Part shown: piece by piece, positions 7,925-31,920 of the stretch
Position numbering within the stretch: the first letter of the stretch is position 1
Layout of the letters: the number at the start of each line of letters is the position of its first letter
Source of the DNA: Deltaproteobacteria bacterium
GTDB lineage: Bacteria; Desulfobacterota; GWC2-55-46
Reading direction: 5' to 3'
NCBI GenBank assembly: GCA_016212705.1
Contig: JACREU010000093.1
Coordinates: forward strand, 1-42,039
Length of the DNA: 42,039 bases
The notes under the pieces: generated by a model
Database searches by the model: none
Seen by the model: only the letters and a program-made list of their open reading frames with translations
Told to the model about the DNA's origin: nothing
Position numbers and translations under genes: made by a program

Positions 7925-8839
7925 TCAGACGGTCGCCATCTTCTCGACAAGGGGACAGTGCGCCTCCGCAGGCTCGTCTTTCGACGGGGCCTCAGTGAGG
8001 ACCCAGTTCTCGGGCCACTTGAGTATCTCCTGGACGAGCTTGAAGTTGAGGGCGTGCCCGGACCTGTGGGCCTTCAACTGGCCTATCACAGTAAAACCGA
8101 GGAGGGAGATGTCGCCCATAAGGTCCAATACCTTGTGCCTTACAAACTCGTCCGGGTATCTTAAGCCCTCTTCGTTCAGTATTTCGTTGTCTCCAATGAC
8201 TATGGCGTTATCGAGGGAGCCGCCCTTGGCAAGCCCGTTTTTCTTGAGCATCTCGTAGTCGCTCAAAAACCCGAAGGTCCTGGCCCTGCCGACGCCGTCC
8301 CTGAAGACGTCCCCGGAAAAAAGCCCTGAGAACGACTGCTTGGTGATGAACGGATGGGCGAAGTCTATCGAGTAATCTACCGTGAACTCGTCGTCCTCTG
8401 AAGGGGCTATCTCGACAAACTTGTCGCGGTCGGCTACCCTTATCGGCTCTTTTATGACAAGATACTTTTTAGGCGCTGAAAGGTCTTTGAGGCCCGAAGA
8501 CTCTATCATCGAGATGAACTCAGAGGCCGAGCCGTCCATTATCGGCACCTCGGGGCCGTCGAGCTCTACCCGGGCGTTATCTACCCCAAGCCCGTAAAAC
8601 GCGGCAAGGAGGTGCTCGACGGTCGATACCGTTAGGCCCTTCCTGCCGAGCGTCGTCGCGTAGCTCGTTGCCACGACGTTCTCTGCCGTGGCCCTTATGA
8701 TAGGGGATGAAGGGACGTCCGTCCTTAAGAATACTATCCCGGTATCCTCGTTCGCGGGCAGTATCCTCACCCTTATCTCGTGGCCGGTGTGGAGGCCTAT
8801 GCCGGAGAACTCTATCTTGTTTTTTATCGTCTTCTGCAT
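7925..8839 (-). CDS. lpxC: UDP-3-O-acyl-N-acetylglucosamine deacetylase
   Basis: LpxC is the zinc enzyme of the first committed step of lipid A synthesis in the cytoplasm. From ATG at 8839 the product is 304 residues. The zinc ligands are visible as His76 in STVEHLLAA, His235 and Asp239 in HKVLDLMGD, and the catalytic His262 lies in HRSGHALN. This start gives the MQKTIKNKIEFSGIGLHTG beginning that matches the family. ATGs at 8854 and 8884 are in frame and cannot be excluded, since no start has a strong Shine-Dalgarno. It appears monocistronic. Confidence 0.95.
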   Translation of the reverse strand: MQKTIKNKIEFSGIGLHTGHEIRVRILPANEDTGIVFLRTDVPSSPIIRATAENVVATSYATTLGRKGLTVSTVEHLLAAFYGLGVDNARVELDGPEVPIMDGSASEFISMIESSGLKDLSAPKKYLVIKEPIRVADRDKFVEIAPSEDDEFTVDYSIDFAHPFITKQSFSGLFSGDVFRDGVGRARTFGFLSDYEMLKKNGLAKGGSLDNAIVIGDNEILNEEGLRYPDEFVRHKVLDLMGDISLLGFTVIGQLKAHRSGHALNFKLVQEILKWPENWVLTEAPSKDEPAEAHCPLVEKMATV

Positions 8840-8939
8840 CCTGATGCTATTCATACCGGATATACTAAGCAATATGTGTGCCATAGCCAGAGTCCAATCA
8901 ATTCAAAGAGTTATAAAAGCATGTAGGCTTTAAATATGT

Positions 8940-12826: not shown

Positions 12827-14485
12827 CTATGTGTTGTTTGATACCGCACAGTACCAGTAAGTCCCGTCGAATACGGCGCTCATGGTATCCCCGGAGGACG
12901 CCGTAAAGTCAGCCCCGCCGTTCCCCTTAAGATTCGTCCCTGTAAAATCAACGGTCGTATTTGCGTCGTTAAAGAGGATAAGCACCTCCTGCCCCGCAAA
13001 ACCGTCATCGAGCATGGTGATGGTCGTCGCCCCTGCGTTTGCCGTCTTGAAAAGGCTTCCATTAGCCACACTCGGCGTCGCGTCAAGAGAGGTGAAGGAC
13101 ACGAAGTTCCCCCTCTTCTGCGAGGACAGCCCGTAGGTCGTATCGAACCTGGTGAAAAGGTCTATCCTTGCCGGGTTCGATATGGTGGTGGTGAGGGTAG
13201 AATCCATCTCGTTCCCTTCGACGCGCAGGCCCCTCTGGGCGACGTCCTGAATATCAATTCCTATGGTCGTACCGGGTGCAGAGGCGGATTTATAGAACTT
13301 GTTCCTGAGAATCTCCTTGCCATACGAATACAGGCTCCCCCAGACCTGAACGCCCGTTACGAGGATATTGGCGAAGATGCAATCCTCGACCGTGGCCCTG
13401 TCTATCCCTGCCACGTTGTTGTCGCCGTCGCTCTTGCCGAGGGAAAGGGATATGTCGCAGTTTGAGAACCACGACCCCTTTACACTCGTTACCTGCGCCC
13501 GGTTATGGATGAGCATGCCTATCCCTCCGTTCGCCCCGTCCTGGCAAGCCTCGATGTACGACCCCAACCAGTTGATATTCTTCGCGCCGCTCCCTACAAG
13601 GACCCCGTATGTCTTATGGGTCGTAGCCTGACAGCCTATGCAATTAATGGTCGTGATTATCGAGCCTGACGCATACGTGTTATGCCCCAGCTCCCATCCC
13701 TTGTCGAAGGCCACGGTGTTGACGTTTATGAAGTTGAGGTTGCCGCCCCCGTTCTGCGAGGTAAGCGTGCGGACGATGAGTCCTGTCCCTGAAACGGTCT
13801 TACCAGCGCCGTAAATCAATATATCCGACCAGGTGCAAACGTAGCCCCCCTCATAAAGTATCCCGCCGCCAGACCCCTTTTGCCCGACAAGAAGCCTGTT
13901 CAGCGTAAACCCGTAATTGGCTATGTCTATGTCAAAGACCTGAGTCGTGTTCGTGGCGATGATAGACATGTCCTCGATAACAAAATTGGACATCCTTGAG
14001 CCGACGCCTGTGCCGTCCATTTTTATCGCCGGGCCTGTCGCGTCGGTCGATTCAAGCACCGTACCCGTCCAGACGGAATATAGGAAGTTGTAGCCCCCCA
14101 CCGCACCGTCGCCCATTATCTTAACTTTACCCTCGTAACCAGCGGTCTGCGGCCAACCTGGGTTGCTTGTAGCGTCGTAATGAAAGTAGAGCCGCGTGAA
14201 TTTGTAATGCCCCTCCGGCGCATAGACGTTCAGCCCGTTCGTGGCCGCGTAGTTTATCGCGCTCTGCAACGCCGTAGTATCGTCCGTCGCTCCGTCGCCC
14301 GTTGCGCCGAAGGCCCTTACGTCCACCCAGGGCCTCTTTGCCACGAGGTCCGAATATACGTTAGCGGACTTGTGTGTCCCGTCGTTATTGTGCTCTACGA
14401 GCGAGAGCCTGTTTATGGTGTCGGCCTTGGCCGCGTGGTTCGCGCCTACGAGCTCCTCGGTGTACTGTATCCTCTGGTCCGCCAT
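12827..14485 (-). CDS. Tailspike, pectate-lyase-like beta helix
   Basis: The 552-residue protein has an N-terminal adaptor (about 1-52) and then WVDVRAFGATGDGATDDTTA (about 53-72), the classic start of right-handed parallel beta-helix tailspikes. Helix coils fill about 75-450, with many short hydrophobic beta repeats. A C-terminal domain of about 80 residues starting near ATPSVANGSLFKTANA occurs in many receptor-binding proteins. It probably binds or hydrolyses a surface polysaccharide. Catalytic residues cannot be assigned from sequence alone. GGAG lies before the ATG. Confidence 0.82.
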   Translation of the reverse strand: MADQRIQYTEELVGANHAAKADTINRLSLVEHNNDGTHKSANVYSDLVAKRPWVDVRAFGATGDGATDDTTALQSAINYAATNGLNVYAPEGHYKFTRLYFHYDATSNPGWPQTAGYEGKVKIMGDGAVGGYNFLYSVWTGTVLESTDATGPAIKMDGTGVGSRMSNFVIEDMSIIATNTTQVFDIDIANYGFTLNRLLVGQKGSGGGILYEGGYVCTWSDILIYGAGKTVSGTGLIVRTLTSQNGGGNLNFINVNTVAFDKGWELGHNTYASGSIITTINCIGCQATTHKTYGVLVGSGAKNINWLGSYIEACQDGANGGIGMLIHNRAQVTSVKGSWFSNCDISLSLGKSDGDNNVAGIDRATVEDCIFANILVTGVQVWGSLYSYGKEILRNKFYKSASAPGTTIGIDIQDVAQRGLRVEGNEMDSTLTTTISNPARIDLFTRFDTTYGLSSQKRGNFVSFTSLDATPSVANGSLFKTANAGATTITMLDDGFAGQEVLILFNDANTTVDFTGTNLKGNGGADFTASSGDTMSAVFDGTYWYCAVSNNT

Positions 14486-15616: not shown

Positions 15617-16387
15617 TTATTCACCTTCCTTAATAGACGTAGTTTCCGGCATGGATTTCAATCTGTGGAGCTCAAAGAACTTCCATTTTATCTTATCCAA
15701 TAGCCTTTGCTTATACTGAAATGCTTGGGCGTCGGGTTCCCAGCGTTTATATTGCGGCGTCTTGAACAGAGACTCTGATCTGGCTTTTACGATCACCTCT
15801 ATATATTCATCTTCTTTTGTCAACCATACGGTCAATTTGCTCCTCGTGTCCCCGTCATTTTTTATATTGGTCGACATGTACCCGTCCTCTTTATTCATCT
15901 GAGCCAGGACATACCCGAGCTCGTCTATACTGTCCCTAACGACCCGCCACATCCTGTCATAGCTGGTCTTGACCTCAAAGTAATTGGTCTGGCGTGCGAA
16001 ATACCCGATCTGGTATCTTGGCCCAATATCAATAAAGTACTTTAAGAAGTCAGGGTCGAAAAAATAATCCCCGACGACATATCCGGATTCACAATTTTCG
16101 AGCTTTATTTTATAGAAAATGGTTTTAGCATCTTTGAGTCTATCGTTCTCATCCAAATCCAAAATGCATTCCCCATCCTTTTTGCCTTGGCCGCATTCAA
16201 CCCCCTCTATTACAAATCTAACTGGCTTCATGACAAAAAAAGTCTCACTATCCGCTGATGGGTTTTTGCTAAAAGCAATCTTCTCAGGGACAACCAGCGC
16301 GAACTTTTCGCCTATCATCATTTTATGAGTTACTGTGCACCCGGCTATTGTCAAAAGAAAAGCTATCAACAATATTATTCTTTTCAT
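15617..16387 (-). CDS. Phage-borne lipoprotein, BamC/NlpB-like segment (moron)
   Basis: From ATG at 16387 the product is 256 residues. The signal peptide is MKRIILLIAFLLTIAG and the lipobox cysteine is Cys17, so it should be lipid-anchored. A segment around 140-165 (YDRMWRVVRDSIDELGYVLA, then DGYMSTN) resembles the repeat unit of BamC/NlpB-type lipoproteins. The gene is visibly AT-rich compared with its neighbours. It has long non-coding flanks and interrupts the tape-measure-to-distal-tail order. These are marks of a moron (cargo) gene with its own expression. Superinfection exclusion or envelope modification is a reasonable guess, not shown. The upstream stretch 16388-16458 is AT-rich with several possible -10 boxes but no clear -35. 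Confidence 0.75.
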   Translation of the reverse strand: MKRIILLIAFLLTIAGCTVTHKMMIGEKFALVVPEKIAFSKNPSADSETFFVMKPVRFVIEGVECGQGKKDGECILDLDENDRLKDAKTIFYKIKLENCESGYVVGDYFFDPDFLKYFIDIGPRYQIGYFARQTNYFEVKTSYDRMWRVVRDSIDELGYVLAQMNKEDGYMSTNIKNDGDTRSKLTVWLTKEDEYIEVIVKARSESLFKTPQYKRWEPDAQAFQYKQRLLDKIKWKFFELHRLKSMPETTSIKEGE

Positions 16388-16458
16388 CTCATCCTCCAAA
16401 ATAATTTAATATTTTCATGTATAACCATATCATATATGCCATATATTCAATAAACTGT

Positions 16459-17319
16459 TTATTTATTGACTGAAATTGTTATATTCTTCTCCGCCGCGCT
16501 GTTAAGCGCAGGCACTATGCTCTCCTCCACTATCTTTTGCCAGTTCTGCTCAGAAAGGGGGTTGTAGATATTGACTGTCACCTGCTGTGTCGTCCCTGCA
16601 GAGCCCGAATCATACGCCTGCACCGATGAAGACGACTGGGTCGAAGAGGTCTCCGAAGACGAAGACGACGACTCATCGCTCTCCCCAGGCACAAGCGCCT
16701 CCACCCCGGCCGCGGCCGCAAGCGAAGCCCCGGCTATCACCCCGAACTCCTCGGCCGCCGCAAAGTGCATCCCCGCCGTTCCCGCAGAACCCACGGCCAG
16801 GTCCTTAAGCCCCATAGCGGTCTCGTATATCGCCCATATCGCGGCCTTCGCGGCAAGCCCCGTAAGCTCGATCTTGACCTGCTCTGCCATGACTCTCGCG
16901 AGCTCGCCTATCGAGAATTTGTGTGTCTCGACGAGCTTCAAAAGCTCGTCCCCAAGCGCCTGATACGCCTTCGTCTCCACTGACTGCATGGATTTAACAC
17001 CCGCCTCATGGAGCTTCCTGTATCCGTCAAGTGCCGAGAACCCCTCTTTTTCGAGATCTATCCTTGCCTTGAAATACTCCTCTTCCTCCTTGAACCTCTC
17101 CCCTATCTCAAGAAAGCCGAATATCGACCCCTCTTCGGCCTTGAACGACTCCAGCGCCGCGCCTGCCTCGCTCACAGCCGACATGAACTCGCTTGCCGAG
17201 CCGCTTAAACTCCAGTACCGCTCCTCAACGGACGAAAGCGCGGCCTCGAACCCCAGAAGGGCCTCCGTGGCCTCCTGATAACCGCTGTCCTTATTGAAAC
17301 TATCCTGCCTTCTCGCCAT
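16459..17319 (-). CDS. Short tail tape measure protein
   Basis: The 286-residue product is mostly helical (about 15-200). It has the alternating hydrophobic and Ala/Gly-rich C-terminal part typical of tape measures (MAEQVKIELTGLAAKAAIWA and following), a Ser-rich linker near 215-245, and a small terminal domain. It directly follows the frameshifted tail chaperone gene, the expected place. Tape measures usually exceed 600 residues and set tail length, so this one predicts a very short tail. The start at 17319 lies 20 bases before the chaperone stop, with GGAAGG upstream. A longer frame to 17376 exists. Confidence 0.7.
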   Translation of the reverse strand: MARRQDSFNKDSGYQEATEALLGFEAALSSVEERYWSLSGSASEFMSAVSEAGAALESFKAEEGSIFGFLEIGERFKEEEEYFKARIDLEKEGFSALDGYRKLHEAGVKSMQSVETKAYQALGDELLKLVETHKFSIGELARVMAEQVKIELTGLAAKAAIWAIYETAMGLKDLAVGSAGTAGMHFAAAEEFGVIAGASLAAAAGVEALVPGESDESSSSSSETSSTQSSSSVQAYDSGSAGTTQQVTVNIYNPLSEQNWQKIVEESIVPALNSAAEKNITISVNK

Positions 17320-17719
17320 CCGCCCCATCCTTCCTGAACGCCGCACTTTCTGACCTGAATATCTCGAACGCCTCAACGAGCCATGCGCTCTGGTCGCCCC
17401 AGCCGCCGTTCATAAAGAGCCTACCTCCGCCTTCCATAAGGTAGACCGCCCTTACAATCTCCCGCGTCTCCCATGATATGTAGCTCAATGGGCACTCATA
17501 CAACCTCAGGCCCCGGAGGCTGAAGACCTTCGGAGCCCCCTTTGCCTTGAGCTCCTCGGCGACCCCTTCCGTGTAATTAAAGACCGCCTTTGCCGCTTCC
17601 GTCAGACCGAGCGAGTTTCCGCAGTTCCTCTGAGAGCGGTCCCTGGGGCCGCATCTCCCGCAATCGAACGGGCTACCATCCCTTGCCGCCAGCAGGCTCA
17701 GGCGGAAGCCCGTTGTCAG
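17300..17719 (-). CDS. Tail assembly chaperone GT extension (-1 frameshift)
   Basis: This frame stays open for 139 codons from the slippery site to a TAG at 17300-17302. It has no ATG before 17503, so it is best read as the continuation of the 17716-18090 gene. The fusion would be 263 residues. The extension contains C-x2-C-x9-C (DCGRCG...NC, fused residues about 144-157), possibly a metal site. In lambda and relatives, G and GT bind the tape measure and tail tube during assembly. Here too the pair sits between tail tube and tape measure. Translation from ATG 17503 alone would give only 67 residues. Confidence 0.8.
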   Translation of the reverse strand: MTTGFRLSLLAARDGSPFDCGRCGPRDRSQRNCGNSLGLTEAAKAVFNYTEGVAEELKAKGAPKVFSLRGLRLYECPLSYISWETREIVRAVYLMEGGGRLFMNGGWGDQSAWLVEAFEIFRSESAAFRKDGADGEKAG

Positions 17720-18090
17720 TTTTTTATTTGACCTTCAGAGAGCTTCGAGCTTGACTCCATCGCCTTTATTATTTCCAGTATAAGGTCGGTGTCCGCCGTA
17801 TCGTATAACCTCTCGGGGTCGCGCGCCTCGACGCCGTCTACGAAGTAGTTCGAGACACCCTCCACATTCTCGACGAACTGCCTCTTTTGCACCTCCTGGC
17901 CGACCTCGGCGAGCTTAAGGTTATCGCCCGCGCCCTTGGCCCTCGTTGCTATGAGGCGGGAGTAATGTTGCACCCGCGAGTACGGGCAGAATTTGAGCCT
18001 CACTACACACGGGTCCGCGCTCTCCCTGTTCCCGGCGTAGGCCGGGACGTAATCTATAAGAGCTTCTTTGTCGAACGATATTATCGCCAT
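17716..18090 (-). CDS. Tail assembly chaperone G
   Basis: The 124-residue product follows the tail tube gene and precedes the tape measure, the position of lambda gpG-type chaperones. It contains no enzymatic motif; its C-terminal half is acidic and helical (TADTDLILEIIKAMESSSK). AAAAAGGAG stands upstream of the ATG. Its last codons ATA AAA AAC TGA contain a canonical slippery heptamer that gives the longer GT form. Confidence 0.75.
   Translation of the reverse strand: MAIISFDKEALIDYVPAYAGNRESADPCVVRLKFCPYSRVQHYSRLIATRAKGAGDNLKLAEVGQEVQKRQFVENVEGVSNYFVDGVEARDPERLYDTADTDLILEIIKAMESSSKLSEGQIKN
17719..17725 (-). promoter_or_regulatory. -1 programmed frameshift heptamer A AAA AAC
   Basis: In the G frame the codons ATA AAA AAC come just before the TGA (17716-17718). 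Tandem slippage gives AAA AAA followed by CTG ACA ACG in the GT frame. A 5-bp GC hairpin CCGCC/GGCGG with a 10-base loop begins about 13 bases downstream and may stimulate slippage. Confidence 0.82.
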
Positions 18091-18309: not shown

Positions 18310-19398
18310 CTATAGAACCGCCGCCGTGTTTTTGAGCATGACCCCGGCTATGTATCCGGCCTCCACGCTCAAGAGCCCCTCGTACTTGAGCGTTATCATC
18401 GGGTCCTTGTCAGTCCCGTACTCCGGCGCGCCGCCGAGCCTCTTTAAAACCGGGAGGTCGATAAACAACCCGTGGTTATCCCCGGTCCCGGCCTGAGTGC
18501 CTGTGTCCCACTTAAGAAAGAGGTTCGTTGAGTTGTCTCCCGCGGCCCAGTCGTTGAACTCGGAAACGGATGAAAAACCGGATGCCGGGTCCTCCCAGTC
18601 TATCGTGAGCTCCGCCGTCACCTTGAACTGCCCCATCCGGGTCTTGTCGGGGTAATCCACGCCGGCGATCCTTAAAACATCCTTCATCCCGTTTTCGATC
18701 TTAACCGTTATCTTGTCCGGCTTTATGATAGTCGCGGAGCCGAACGAAAATCCGGTAAAGTCAGGCGCGGGACCTGTCCTCGTTATCGTCCCGGTATAGA
18801 CGGTGAGGTTATTGTAGTCGCACCTCAAGCCTTCGTCGGCGAATACCGGGCTTCCCACCTCTGCCGTTGGCGTCTCCCTCTTCTGCCCGAACAGCTCGGA
18901 GGTAAGCTTAAGGGGACTGCCCGCCTCCTGAGCAAACGAAAGCCCCTTGACCCTGCCTCCGACGAACGGCCAGTTCTTCGTCGACGCTCCCTCGTTTATG
19001 TTGAAGTTGACGGTAAGGGCCTTTGTCCCGAGGTTCGCGTCCGAAAACGGGTCCGCCTCCGGGTACGCCATGTGATAGTACTGCCCCGTCGCCCCGTTCT
19101 GCCCGGACGTGTTCTTCCCGAAGAAGTGCCTTAATATCTTCCCTGTTATCCCCTTTGCCGAGCCTGATTCCGTGTAAAAGGGCATCTCAATGGACGCGCT
19201 CCACTTCTGCCCCATGCGCTCATAAGACGACGCGCCCTTTACCGACTCCTGCCCCCTGAACTCGGTCCGCTTCTTCTCGTCGAACTCTATCTTCGGGATT
19301 GACGGGCTTAAAACAGGGACAAACCCGATTGTCGCCGCTTCCTTCGTCCCCCTTACCGCCTCTTCCCCTATCGCCACGTATATCTTGTTGTTGGCCAT
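18310..19398 (-). CDS. Major tail tube protein
   Basis: The 362-residue product begins MANNKIYVAIGEEAVRGTKE, a common start for tail tube subunits. It is beta-rich throughout, with a WSASIEMPFYTESG stretch and a C-terminal LKYEGLLSVEAGY region typical of immunoglobulin-like tube domains. It is followed by the G/GT chaperones and preceded by a tail-terminator-like gene. There is one tube gene and no sheath gene, so a non-contractile tail is inferred. GAGGAGGGGG precedes the ATG. Confidence 0.7.
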   Translation of the reverse strand: MANNKIYVAIGEEAVRGTKEAATIGFVPVLSPSIPKIEFDEKKRTEFRGQESVKGASSYERMGQKWSASIEMPFYTESGSAKGITGKILRHFFGKNTSGQNGATGQYYHMAYPEADPFSDANLGTKALTVNFNINEGASTKNWPFVGGRVKGLSFAQEAGSPLKLTSELFGQKRETPTAEVGSPVFADEGLRCDYNNLTVYTGTITRTGPAPDFTGFSFGSATIIKPDKITVKIENGMKDVLRIAGVDYPDKTRMGQFKVTAELTIDWEDPASGFSSVSEFNDWAAGDNSTNLFLKWDTGTQAGTGDNHGLFIDLPVLKRLGGAPEYGTDKDPMITLKYEGLLSVEAGYIAGVMLKNTAAVL

Positions 19399-22363: not shown

Positions 22364-23447
22364 TGATCCCCCCTGTCATTCCCGGGTGCCACAAGAGCCC
22401 ACCACCTCCACCGCCGCCCACGCCGTCGTCGAACTGGTCAAGGACCAGCCCCATCCACGGACGCTTTGTCGTGGTATCTGTCCATGCCCCCGCGTCTGTC
22501 CGGGTCGTCAGATGAAAGTTCTGCCCACCCTCGAAACAATCCATGAGCGCAACCGCATTGACGGTGAAATCGTAAAATGAGTTTGACGTGGTAGTCGTCG
22601 GTTTTACGACAAGACGATAGAACGTGTCCTTGCTCAGGGTCTGCGGCGTGGCAAATTTAAAATAAAACATCCTCGGCGCGGCGTTTACCTTTTGGAAATC
22701 TATGGAGTGTGTCTGCAATGCCGTAGTCCCGTCGCTATCGTATAGCACTATGTCCGCGGACCCCGTAACCCCGGTAACGCGATAGTTCAACCAGAAACCG
22801 GAAAGCCTCGCCGGAAACGGGATGGAAAATTTAAGCCCCCTCTCATCCGGCGTCGAGGATGAATTGAAGGCGGTCTCCGTTGTCGCACTCACCGGGTAAC
22901 AGCCGTAGATAAAGCCATACGAGCCGTCGCTGTATTTTATTGAAAAAAGAGGCCTTGCGGCGATGTTGGCCCACGAGGCCGTATATTGTTTCGATTCAGG
23001 GAACCCGCATACGTTACTGCTGGACCCGCTGGACCCGTCCAGTACGGCTATGCGAAGATTACCGGCTACATAGGAATTGAACTCTATTACGACAGCCACG
23101 ACATCATCTGCCGTTGCGTTAGCATTTGTCCCAAGTGCCACGTTGTACCAGGTATTCGCGGCGGGTGTAGCTTGCGTCCCGGCGACCATGCTCCCGTAGG
23201 CCGTCGTGGTGGGGTTGTTCGACGTATCTACCGTGTACAATCCGACTTTCAGTGTATCCGTGACCGTCACCGCGCCTGTGCGAAAGCCTATCTCGGTTAT
23301 CGTTCCGCTCTTAGGGATTTTAAAGATGAATGCGACCTTTTCGGCGGTAGCGTCTATCAGATACCCTGTAAGGTCATTCGGAGCCCCCAAAACAGCCTCT
23401 ACCTGGTGCGGGATAGTCAGGCCGCCGACGATAGTCTGCATTGTCAT
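22356..23447 (-). CDS. Putative virion decoration protein, two beta-sandwich domains
   Basis: The 363-residue protein seems to consist of two similar-sized beta-sandwich regions (about 20-165 and 185-325). A Gly-rich hinge (VGGGGGGG) follows, then the short tail LLWHPGMTGGING. The composition (Thr, Ser, Asn, aromatic) suggests an exposed carbohydrate-contacting or capsid-decorating protein. No catalytic motif is apparent. Its ATG overlaps the preceding TGA. The role is inferred from its position after the capsid genes. Confidence 0.5.
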   Translation of the reverse strand: MTMQTIVGGLTIPHQVEAVLGAPNDLTGYLIDATAEKVAFIFKIPKSGTITEIGFRTGAVTVTDTLKVGLYTVDTSNNPTTTAYGSMVAGTQATPAANTWYNVALGTNANATADDVVAVVIEFNSYVAGNLRIAVLDGSSGSSSNVCGFPESKQYTASWANIAARPLFSIKYSDGSYGFIYGCYPVSATTETAFNSSSTPDERGLKFSIPFPARLSGFWLNYRVTGVTGSADIVLYDSDGTTALQTHSIDFQKVNAAPRMFYFKFATPQTLSKDTFYRLVVKPTTTTSNSFYDFTVNAVALMDCFEGGQNFHLTTRTDAGAWTDTTTKRPWMGLVLDQFDDGVGGGGGGGLLWHPGMTGGING

Positions 23448-23692
23448 ATCTTAAACTCCTTCGTCTTCAGCACGGACTTCATGGCTGTCCAATCACTGCT
23501 CCCGGACAGTCTGCAAAAGACCTTCAGGTTGTGAAGGACGATGTCCGCCGGGTGCTCGGATAAGTAGGTATCTGCCTTAGGGTCCATCATCGCCGTCTTG
23601 GTCGTGATGATGGTATGCGCTACGCCGGATATCGTTACGTCAATCTTGATATGCTCTCCGCACGGGAGCACGGTCAAGTCTACAGTAGCCAC
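23444..23692 (-). CDS. Hypothetical small phage protein
   Basis: The 82-residue product begins MATVDLTVLPCGEHIKIDVT from a GTG start, with GGAGGGG seven bases upstream. It reads as a small beta domain followed by a charged helix. No family is recognised. It is coupled by ATGA overlap to the 363-residue gene that follows. Confidence 0.6.
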   Translation of the reverse strand: MATVDLTVLPCGEHIKIDVTISGVAHTIITTKTAMMDPKADTYLSEHPADIVLHNLKVFCRLSGSSDWTAMKSVLKTKEFKI

Positions 23693-30630: not shown

Positions 30631-31719
30631 TCAGACGTTGAACTTGAAGTGCATTATGTCTCCGTCCTTGACTACGTAGTCCTTGCCCTCTACCCGGAGC
30701 AGACCTTTTTCACGGCAGGCGGCCTCAGAGCCGTATCTTACGAAGTCCTCATAGGCCATCACCTCGGCCTTTATGAAACCGCGCTCGAAGTCGCTGTGTA
30801 TCACCCCTGCGGCCTTCGGGGCCTTCGAGTCGCGCTCGACCGTCCAGGCCCGCACCTCTTTTTTACCGGCGGTAAAGTAGGTAATGAGCCCGAGGAGCGA
30901 GTACGCCGCGACGGCCAGCCTGTCGAGGCCGGACTCCTTAAGGCCGAGGCCTTTCAGGAACTCGGCCCTCTCCTCCTCTGAGAGTTCGGCGATTTCAGAC
31001 TCAATCTTTCCGCATATCACGACAAATCCAGCGCCCTCTTTTTCCGCGACCTCCCTTACGGCCTCTGCCGCGGCTGAATTCCCGGCAAGGTCCTCCTCGC
31101 CGACATTGGCCACGTAGATAATAGGCTTCGCCGTAAGGAGGTTCAGGTCTTTTACTATGGACGCCGTCTCCTTTGAGAGGACCGTCCTCGCAGGGCGTCC
31201 GGCCTCGAAGGCCGCCTTGAGTTCGTTGTATACGGGCAGGGCCTCTGCCATGGCCTTGTCGGTCTTGGCGAGGCGCGAGGCCTTTTCAAGCCTCTTATCG
31301 ACCGAGTCCATGTCCGCGAGTATGAGCTCCGTCTCTATTACCTCTATGTCGCCTTTGGGGTCTATCCTTCCGTCGACGTGGACGATCCCCGGGTCCTCGA
31401 AGCACCTGACGACGTGGACGATGGTATCGACGCTCCTTATGTTGCCGAGGAACTGGTTCCCGAGCCCCTCGCCCTTGGACGCCCCCTTCACGATACCGGC
31501 GATGTCCACGAACTCGACGGCCGTGGGCAAGACCCGCTCCGGCTTTACCAGAGCGGCGAGTTTCTGCATCCTCTCGTCGCGCAGAGGCACCATCCCGATG
31601 TTCGGGTCTATGGTGCAGAACGGATAGTTTGACGCCTCGGCCCCGGCCGCCGTCATGGCGTTGAATATGGTGGACTTCCCGACGTTCGGGAGCCCTATGA
31701 TCCCGCAGTTGAACCCCAT
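30631..31719 (-). CDS. ychF: Redox/ribosome-associated ATPase YchF
   Basis: YchF is an Obg-family P-loop protein that prefers ATP and associates with ribosomes. From ATG at 31719 the product is 362 residues, the usual length. G1 GLPNVGKS is at 9-16, the switch region FVDIAG near 70, and NVGEED stands in place of the usual NKxD. A TGS domain forms the C-terminus (about 278-362), ending KDGDIMHFKFNV. The longer frame to 31899 runs through terminators and is rejected. Confidence 0.96.
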   Translation of the reverse strand: MGFNCGIIGLPNVGKSTIFNAMTAAGAEASNYPFCTIDPNIGMVPLRDERMQKLAALVKPERVLPTAVEFVDIAGIVKGASKGEGLGNQFLGNIRSVDTIVHVVRCFEDPGIVHVDGRIDPKGDIEVIETELILADMDSVDKRLEKASRLAKTDKAMAEALPVYNELKAAFEAGRPARTVLSKETASIVKDLNLLTAKPIIYVANVGEEDLAGNSAAAEAVREVAEKEGAGFVVICGKIESEIAELSEEERAEFLKGLGLKESGLDRLAVAAYSLLGLITYFTAGKKEVRAWTVERDSKAPKAAGVIHSDFERGFIKAEVMAYEDFVRYGSEAACREKGLLRVEGKDYVVKDGDIMHFKFNV

Positions 31720-31748
31720 CTCTAAGAGAATTCCTTTCGTAGTTAATA

Positions 31749-31772
31749 AAAATCCCCGCGGAATCCGCGGGG
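31749..31772 (-). terminator. Hairpin with T-run in the ychF leader
   Basis: Perfect CCCCGCGGA/TCCGCGGGG (31754-31772) is followed on the minus strand by ATTTTTATT. It lies 35 bases before the ychF start. It may be a second stop for hppA readthrough or an attenuator acting on ychF. Confidence 0.6.
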
Positions 31773-31852
31773 CGTCCTGCAAAAAAAACCTCCCCGCGCC
31801 CGATAGAAGAAAGGTGAGCGGGAATATAGGGTTTTTACCCGGTGCAGGCCCT

Positions 31853-31887
31853 AAAAAAGACAAGGCAGGTAAATACCTGCCTTGTCT
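31853..31887 (-). terminator. Intrinsic terminator of hppA
   Basis: A perfect 14-bp stem (31858-31871 with 31874-31887) is followed by six T residues on the minus strand. It is 34 bases beyond the hppA stop codon. Confidence 0.93.
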
Positions 31888-31920
31888 CGCATAATACAAT
31901 ATTTATGCGGAATAATAAAT

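Follow-up and report, generated by a model that had tools for sequence, protein, structure and literature searches.

The window studied here, i.e., the whole stretch of DNA that was analysed, comprises 42,039 nt (contig JACREU010000093.1 of assembly GCA_016212705.1, Deltaproteobacteria bacterium), and the genes and signals described below lie on its minus strand. A phage-like cluster (9371-30102), identified by family searches and by its occurrence at the same site in related genomes, is located between two host genes. One flank is formed by a gene at 7925-8884 that we take to be lpxC, based on our own reading of the sequence and not on a family search, the opposite one by ychF (30631-31899; Pfam YchF-GTPase_C). 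The cluster encodes holin-like, peptidase M15, tail spike, tail, capsid, scaffold and portal proteins as well as the large and small terminase subunits. Among its particle genes, terminase, portal, tube and spike were matched, and the capsid match is below the Pfam cut-off. There is also a single sub-threshold Pfam match to GTA_holin_3TM (E=0.002). No integrase, repressor or replication gene was recognised with confidence among the scanned ORFs of the window and of the G009 clusters, many of which are without family match; some ORFs, e.g., 23444-23692, were outside the scan.

A lipoprotein-like gene (15617-16458) follows the putative tape measure gene and looks like a late insert, given its G+C content of 40% vs. 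57% for the cluster. Relatives are present in 11/34 loci. L039 shows 81% identity, and the remaining ten, of which two are the same contig, have 29-37%. The tail spike gene (12827-14485) shows a dN of 0.76 over 54 codons between genomes G009 and G028, as if receptor-binding parts had been swapped. Outside the cluster, CTT TGA C at 2138-2144 follows an ATG (2210) in the same frame, and the +1 frame continues a release factor 2-like gene. By its look, this is presumably the usual prfB +1 frameshift site, where both gene name and motif are our assumption.

The tail tube gene (18310-19398; Pfam Phage_tube_2, E=4e-14) is followed by the zero-frame gene G of a short tail assembly chaperone (17716-18090; 124 aa), an extension in the -1 frame, denoted T (17300-17719; 139 aa plus stop), which is identified by its open frame and conservation, and a short putative tape measure gene (16459-17319). 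The latter is assigned based on position, overlap and a sub-threshold match to Tape_meas_lam_C (E=0.024; 15.1 bits vs. a cut-off of 23). G ends with CAA ATA AAA AAC TGA. That is, the slippery heptamer A AAA AAC (17725-17719) is found in zero-frame phase, i.e., in the phase X XXY YYZ that is right for tandem -1 slippage, and is directly followed by the zero-frame stop TGA (17718-17716). The -1 frame is bounded upstream by a stop at 17737-17735; it stays open from 17734 onwards and offers 139 codons past the slip until a stop ending at 17300. It contains no ATG, GTG or TTG upstream of 17503. If the tape measure starts with the ATG at 17319, T overlaps it by 20 nt; an alternative in-frame ATG is at 17328. 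Across loci, the longest ORF with a start close to the T end encodes 281 to 346 aa in 23/36 cases and deviates or is truncated in the remaining 13; such a length is small for a tape measure and would imply a short tail. An earlier note on this DNA had described the in-phase heptamer just ahead of the zero-frame stop, the 139 open codons, the 20-base overlap and the order tail tube, G/GT, tape measure, all of which agree with our reading (the overlap given ATG 17319). Its statement that no ATG precedes 17503 holds as well, but the codon at 17503 is a TTG, the first of this frame, whose first ATG comes at 17437.

Within the window, AAAAAAC is over-represented (12 occurrences vs. 3.49 expected; 0/100 shuffles as high), such that the word by itself is weak evidence. 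Among the 12 copies, only 17725-17719 ends a long frame (129 codons open upstream, 0 to the stop) and is accompanied by a 139-codon -1 frame. The other 11 are without a long frame end plus a long -1 frame downstream, and a chance heptamer is thus rejected. One of these copies (8819-8825) is in phase inside lpxC, where the -1 frame is open for 80 codons, probably by chance.

G resembles a tail assembly chaperone in its predicted fold. The AlphaFold model (mean pLDDT 81) was compared with 169 chains using VIA-align, where the HK97 tail assembly chaperone 2ob9 is ranked first (Z 6.0; 94 residues) and YqbN 3klu second (Z 5.7; 91 residues); a Z of 6 can reflect a common arrangement. A Foldseek search of the model against the PDB gave no match at E <= 0.001. 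On the sequence level, G matches nothing in Pfam at E <= 0.1, and phrog_16934 (E=0.019) is its sole match in PHROGs. G is 124 aa long in 32/34 alignment rows, with 128 aa in L070 and 123 aa in L071, when the start nearest to 125 codons is chosen. Its dN/dS of 0.03 to 0.08 is lower still than the respective values for T (0.10-0.30; 9 pairs), which is likewise under purifying selection.

The extension T carries four cysteines, i.e., C20 and C23 (codons within 17651-17662), C33 (17621-17623) and C76 (17492-17494; YECP motif), that show no variation in 27 sequences. The first three form the C-x2-C-x9-C motif already pointed out in the earlier note, to which C76 is added here. The respective alignment (A2) comprises the loci from a whole-protein search with T and one near-duplicate from IMG/VR. 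We base the four-cysteine statement on A2, since in the pattern-scan rows of alignment A3 the YECP cysteine is invariant by construction. T is modelled by AlphaFold with a mean pLDDT of 93.4. Searched as a single sequence, T of the window has no Pfam or PHROGs match at E <= 0.1, and scanning all 27 T sequences one by one yields only weak matches (best: C2HC zinc finger, E=0.016, in Pfam; E=0.11 in PHROGs). A T profile finds nothing better than E=0.31 among PDB sequences. For the model, Foldseek reports no fold match in the PDB at E <= 0.001, the best VIA Z is 3.5, and the best match among viral structures has an E of 0.05. In 50,697 phage records, tblastn finds no match to G or T at E <= 0.1. 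T is thus a new four-cysteine domain without significant relative in Pfam, PHROGs, the PDB and the phage records, whose cysteines probably hold a structural metal ion.

We studied how T and the cluster are distributed. The whole-protein search detects T in 32/48 genomes of one order and in 0/11 class relatives outside of it. In a phylum sample, 8/395 genomes are positive, all 8 from this order. The 26 loci from the named genome collection are labelled Deltaproteobacteria bacterium in 25 cases and bacterium in one. Considering portal or T, the cluster is present in 36/48 order genomes. In 25 of these 36, ychF and/or lpxC share a contig with the element; the available contigs of the other 11 show no linkage. 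The distance between ychF and portal is 3.8 to 7.3 kb in 21 genomes, and lpxC is on the element's contig in 17. In 11 genomes, the whole arrangement is on one contig, with the starts of ychF and lpxC 16 to 27 kb apart. Portal without T is found in G008, G011, G020 and G022, where the contig ends at most about 0.6 kb from the portal gene in G008, G020 and G022. G036 shows a 36th, partial T match with internal stops (E=3.6e-4). In G029 (L088, G029:C143), ychF and lpxC are adjacent with no cluster in between, and in G035 (L089, G035:C14) their starts are about 6 kb apart; judged from the sequence, the latter site looks like a holin-like ORF, a terminase-small-like ORF and a probable insertion sequence.

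We evaluated whether these surroundings represent a conventional prophage or satellite with one preferred site of repeated insertion, and not a vertically inherited element. Related tail genes do occur off-site: second T copies with the heptamer kept are found in G014 (L019, G014:C32), G034 (L035, G034:C40) and G028 (L038, G028:C1) and may be related prophages, there is a second portal in G021 (G021:C16), and the IMG/VR loci L070 and L071 are diverged. In G032, ychF is missing from the 71-kb contig that carries the portal gene. Portal relatives are present in 143 phage records, the best with 37.1% identity in a Pelagibacter phage. Furthermore, the spike genes diverge above the rest, and in genus g1 (G000 vs. 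G003) the dS of cluster genes is widely scattered (0.04 to 0.68) compared to 0.13 for both ychF and lpxC, such that close relatives have likely exchanged genes in this genus.

On the other hand, the linkage to ychF and/or lpxC in 25/36 genomes and the lack of a recognised integrase among the scanned ORFs speak against a mobile prophage, and the gene trees do so, too. For 30 genomes, portal and ychF trees share 16/27 splits, compared to a mean of 0.23 and a maximum of 3 in 2,000 label shuffles. Respective tree distances correlate at 0.73 (0/5,000 permutations as high). Members of the largest family form a single clade in the portal tree, which is not the case in the ychF tree with its weak resolution. 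In genus g6 (G009 vs. G028), head and chaperone genes show a dS near that of the host genes, i.e., 0.25 for portal, 0.25 for capsid, 0.29 for terminase, 0.28 for tube, 0.22 for G and 0.26 for T compared to 0.26 for ychF and 0.26 for lpxC; outliers are the tail gene p11215 (0.46) and the spike (1.18 over 54 codons). As far as this can be read from the sequences, the cluster seems to have been passed on with the host chromosome and not by infection. We consider the prophage or satellite reading possible but doubtful.

The alternative to a prophage is a gene transfer agent (GTA). In PMC9662315, GTAs are characterised by features of which those readable from sequence are found for the cluster, known here from its genes alone and not classed as a GTA by us: particle genes derived from a tailed phage, full endogenisation (linkage in 25/36 genomes) and vertical inheritance along with co-diversification with the host. 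By this definition, a GTA also packages largely random host DNA, is unable to take up its entire own genome and passes DNA on to other cells. The cluster may be an undescribed GTA. On balance, we lean towards the frameshift belonging to an undescribed GTA family. That is, a head-tail cluster would have become fixed beside ychF/lpxC in the common ancestor of the uncultured order; purifying selection would have maintained it together with its frameshift, while some lineages lost it, and its chaperone would have a new four-cysteine, probably metal-binding domain that is made only via the slip. Among the open-licence PMC papers listed for such an agent, the frameshift or the cysteines, none describes the element as judged from title and abstract opening. 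The agent of Desulfovibrio, a sulfate reducer, is the only deltaproteobacterial GTA met in the literature covered (PMC9662315). If the cluster is a GTA, retention of the frameshift suggests ongoing particle assembly with a controlled tail, and the uncultured order would possess its own inherent means of exchanging genes.

The earlier note had proposed to check homologous loci for the heptamer and had named its loss, along with an independent start for the second frame, as speaking against frameshifting. Such a loss is not observed, as all 42/42 distinct loci (window counted) carry A AAA AAC in phase. The set consists of 35 loci (window counted) and the 7 IMG/VR loci L066-L072, where the former stem from the whole-protein T search of 59 related genomes (32 positive, 35 places). 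The letters of the IMG/VR locus L002 agree with those of L006, and the pair is therefore counted once; when L002 is read together with the 35 places, 36/36 have the in-phase heptamer. The same holds for all 26 genome-contig loci, which are left out of the 42 since they come from the same genomes as the whole-protein search. The loci are related to each other, i.e., these counts are not independent events. In 41/42 loci, the zero-frame stop is right next to the heptamer or one codon away; the exception is L071, where it is 45 codons past the heptamer.

The codons at the site are conserved beyond the needs of the protein. The residue before Lys-Asn can be Arg, Ile, Val or, in L072, Ala, but the last base of the respective codon is always A, with AGA in 22, CGA in 7, ATA in 6 and GTA in 1 of 36 loci. 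Such codons are uncommon in the remainder of G and T, where A is the last base in 14% of the Arg codons and AAA accounts for 28% of the Lys codons; for Asn, AAC is the usual choice (69%). In many loci, GAGGG is found upstream of the heptamer. We do not claim it as a Shine-Dalgarno-like element, because the stretch also encodes a conserved Glu-Gly.

A putative stimulatory stem is found downstream of the heptamer, supported by pairing and covariation across loci. In the window, its 5' arm is located at 17702-17712, i.e., 6 nt past the heptamer, and its 3' arm at 17669-17679. Across loci, the 11-nt arm starting 6 nt after the heptamer finds a partner arm that starts 33 to 42 nt after it in 34/35 loci; in L038, the best partner starts at 32 nt in a different phase. 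For the 35 loci, 8 to 11 of the 11 positions are paired with a mean of 10.17, compared to 9.63 when arms are swapped between loci (0/20,000 permutations as high) and to 8.12 for the null of synonymous-codon shuffling. The stem is also obtained with RNAalifold, where 3 pairs are compensated. Based on 33 sequences, 97.0% of the cells pair vs. 93.5% when shuffled and the covariation score is 0.200 vs. 0.130 (each 0/500 as high), while 3 pairs are changed on both sides vs. 0.9 when shuffled (5/500 shuffles reach 3). In L019 and L026, both arms are changed together, which alters the encoded residue on each side. The window's own stem has 9/11 positions paired, a value reached by 30% of the synonymous shuffles of its gene, and the 79 nt at its site fold no better than shuffles (z 0.01).

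The conservation of the heptamer, the gene order and the chaperone-like G model support the lambda-type programmed frameshifting put forward in the earlier note, and we consider a lambda-type programmed -1 ribosomal frameshift to be very probable. Here, most ribosomes would terminate at the TGA and release G, the tail assembly chaperone. In a minority of cases, tRNALys (AAA) and tRNAAsn (AAC) would slip back by one base at A AAA AAC, aided by the hairpin 6 nt downstream, and the ribosome would continue for 139 codons to produce the fusion G-T. By analogy to lambda, many G and few G-T copies would coat the tape measure protein and the T part would recruit tube subunits. Chaperones of this type are produced both as G and as G-T, with G in excess, and are missing from mature particles. 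We infer the slippage itself, its rate, the role of the hairpin, the binding partners and the metal. A AAA AAC is reported to be less shift-prone than A_AAA_AAG in E. coli, such that a low ratio of G-T to G is to be expected. For two genes of another tail chaperone cluster, 6 and 7% were measured (PMC3711429).

Frameshifting might be dispensable if T were translated from its own start, i.e., by re-initiation past the stop of G, which would yield a separate protein and not a fusion. An ATG, GTG or TTG is indeed present in the -1 frame ahead of the first conserved cysteine in 14/35 loci, e.g., GTG at +12 in L009 and L027 or ATG at +9 in L013. The remaining 21/35 loci, however, have none of these codons before the cysteine, and in L004, L014, L016 and L031 the -1 frame opens just 9 nt ahead of the heptamer. 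Neither is a CTG start conserved, given that 6/35 loci have CTA or CTC as their first codon. An own start also leaves the conserved AAAAAAC with its uncommon codons unexplained, and we regard it as very unlikely.

The fusion could also arise at transcription. A runs can slip, and an RNA polymerase slipping on the A6 run would produce mRNAs with an extra A, where one additional A yields the same frame change. But transcriptional slippage should favour longer runs and does not need the C, whereas the run length is exactly 6 and the next base is C in 35/35 loci. The covarying downstream stem also fits ribosomes better than a slipping polymerase, which makes this source of the fusion highly improbable. 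Homopolymers are error-prone, but a gene broken in a single genome by a frame-disrupting indel or an assembly error has a negligible chance of accounting for the same arrangement in 42/42 distinct loci with both parts under purifying selection. Stop-codon readthrough was rejected as well: it adds just 5 zero-frame codons in the window and at most 8 in 14/35 loci. For the programmed frameshift that we prefer, the mechanism is ordinary, and the interest lies in the four-cysteine domain and in the inherited, selected cluster.

Finally, we compared the locus with known systems. With GTAs such as RcGTA, it shares a phage-derived head-tail cluster that is fixed in the chromosome and co-diversifies with the host (PMC9662315). 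It differs in its host group and in being known from genes alone, and apart from the sub-threshold GTA_holin_3TM match no homology to RcGTA was seen. The predicted G fold is akin to the HK97 chaperone 2ob9, but with 6% identity, an rmsd of 5.1 and a chain of 107 residues for 2ob9 vs. the longer G with 124. The same applies to YqbN 3klu, with 9% identity and an rmsd of 4.5.

Compared to lambda G/GT, where the heptamer is GGGAAAG, the site differs by its heptamer A AAA AAC, by the covarying stem and by a T part with four invariant cysteines and without detected sequence relative. Alike are the order of tube, G, T in the -1 frame and tape measure as well as the slip near the end of G. In lambda, two products at a ratio of 30:1 are linked by a low-level -1 slip, with the G part as binding partner of the tape measure and the T part as that of the tube protein (PMC5009743). 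Given this lambda-like gene order together with the signals, the lambda-type reading is the best one. The heptamer AAAAAAC is shared with gp12/gp13 of Acinetobacter phage Loki, where it is also right beside the stop (PMC5313236), and with gp93/gp94 of Caulobacter phage phiCbK (PMC3556154); in contrast, no protein relation to either phage was found (tblastn, 50,697 phage records, E <= 0.1). Since AAAAAAC has been described in the tail-chaperone role for Loki and phiCbK, the device itself is known, and the present locus adds a well-supported case of it that combines the reportedly less shift-prone heptamer with a stem whose arms covary.
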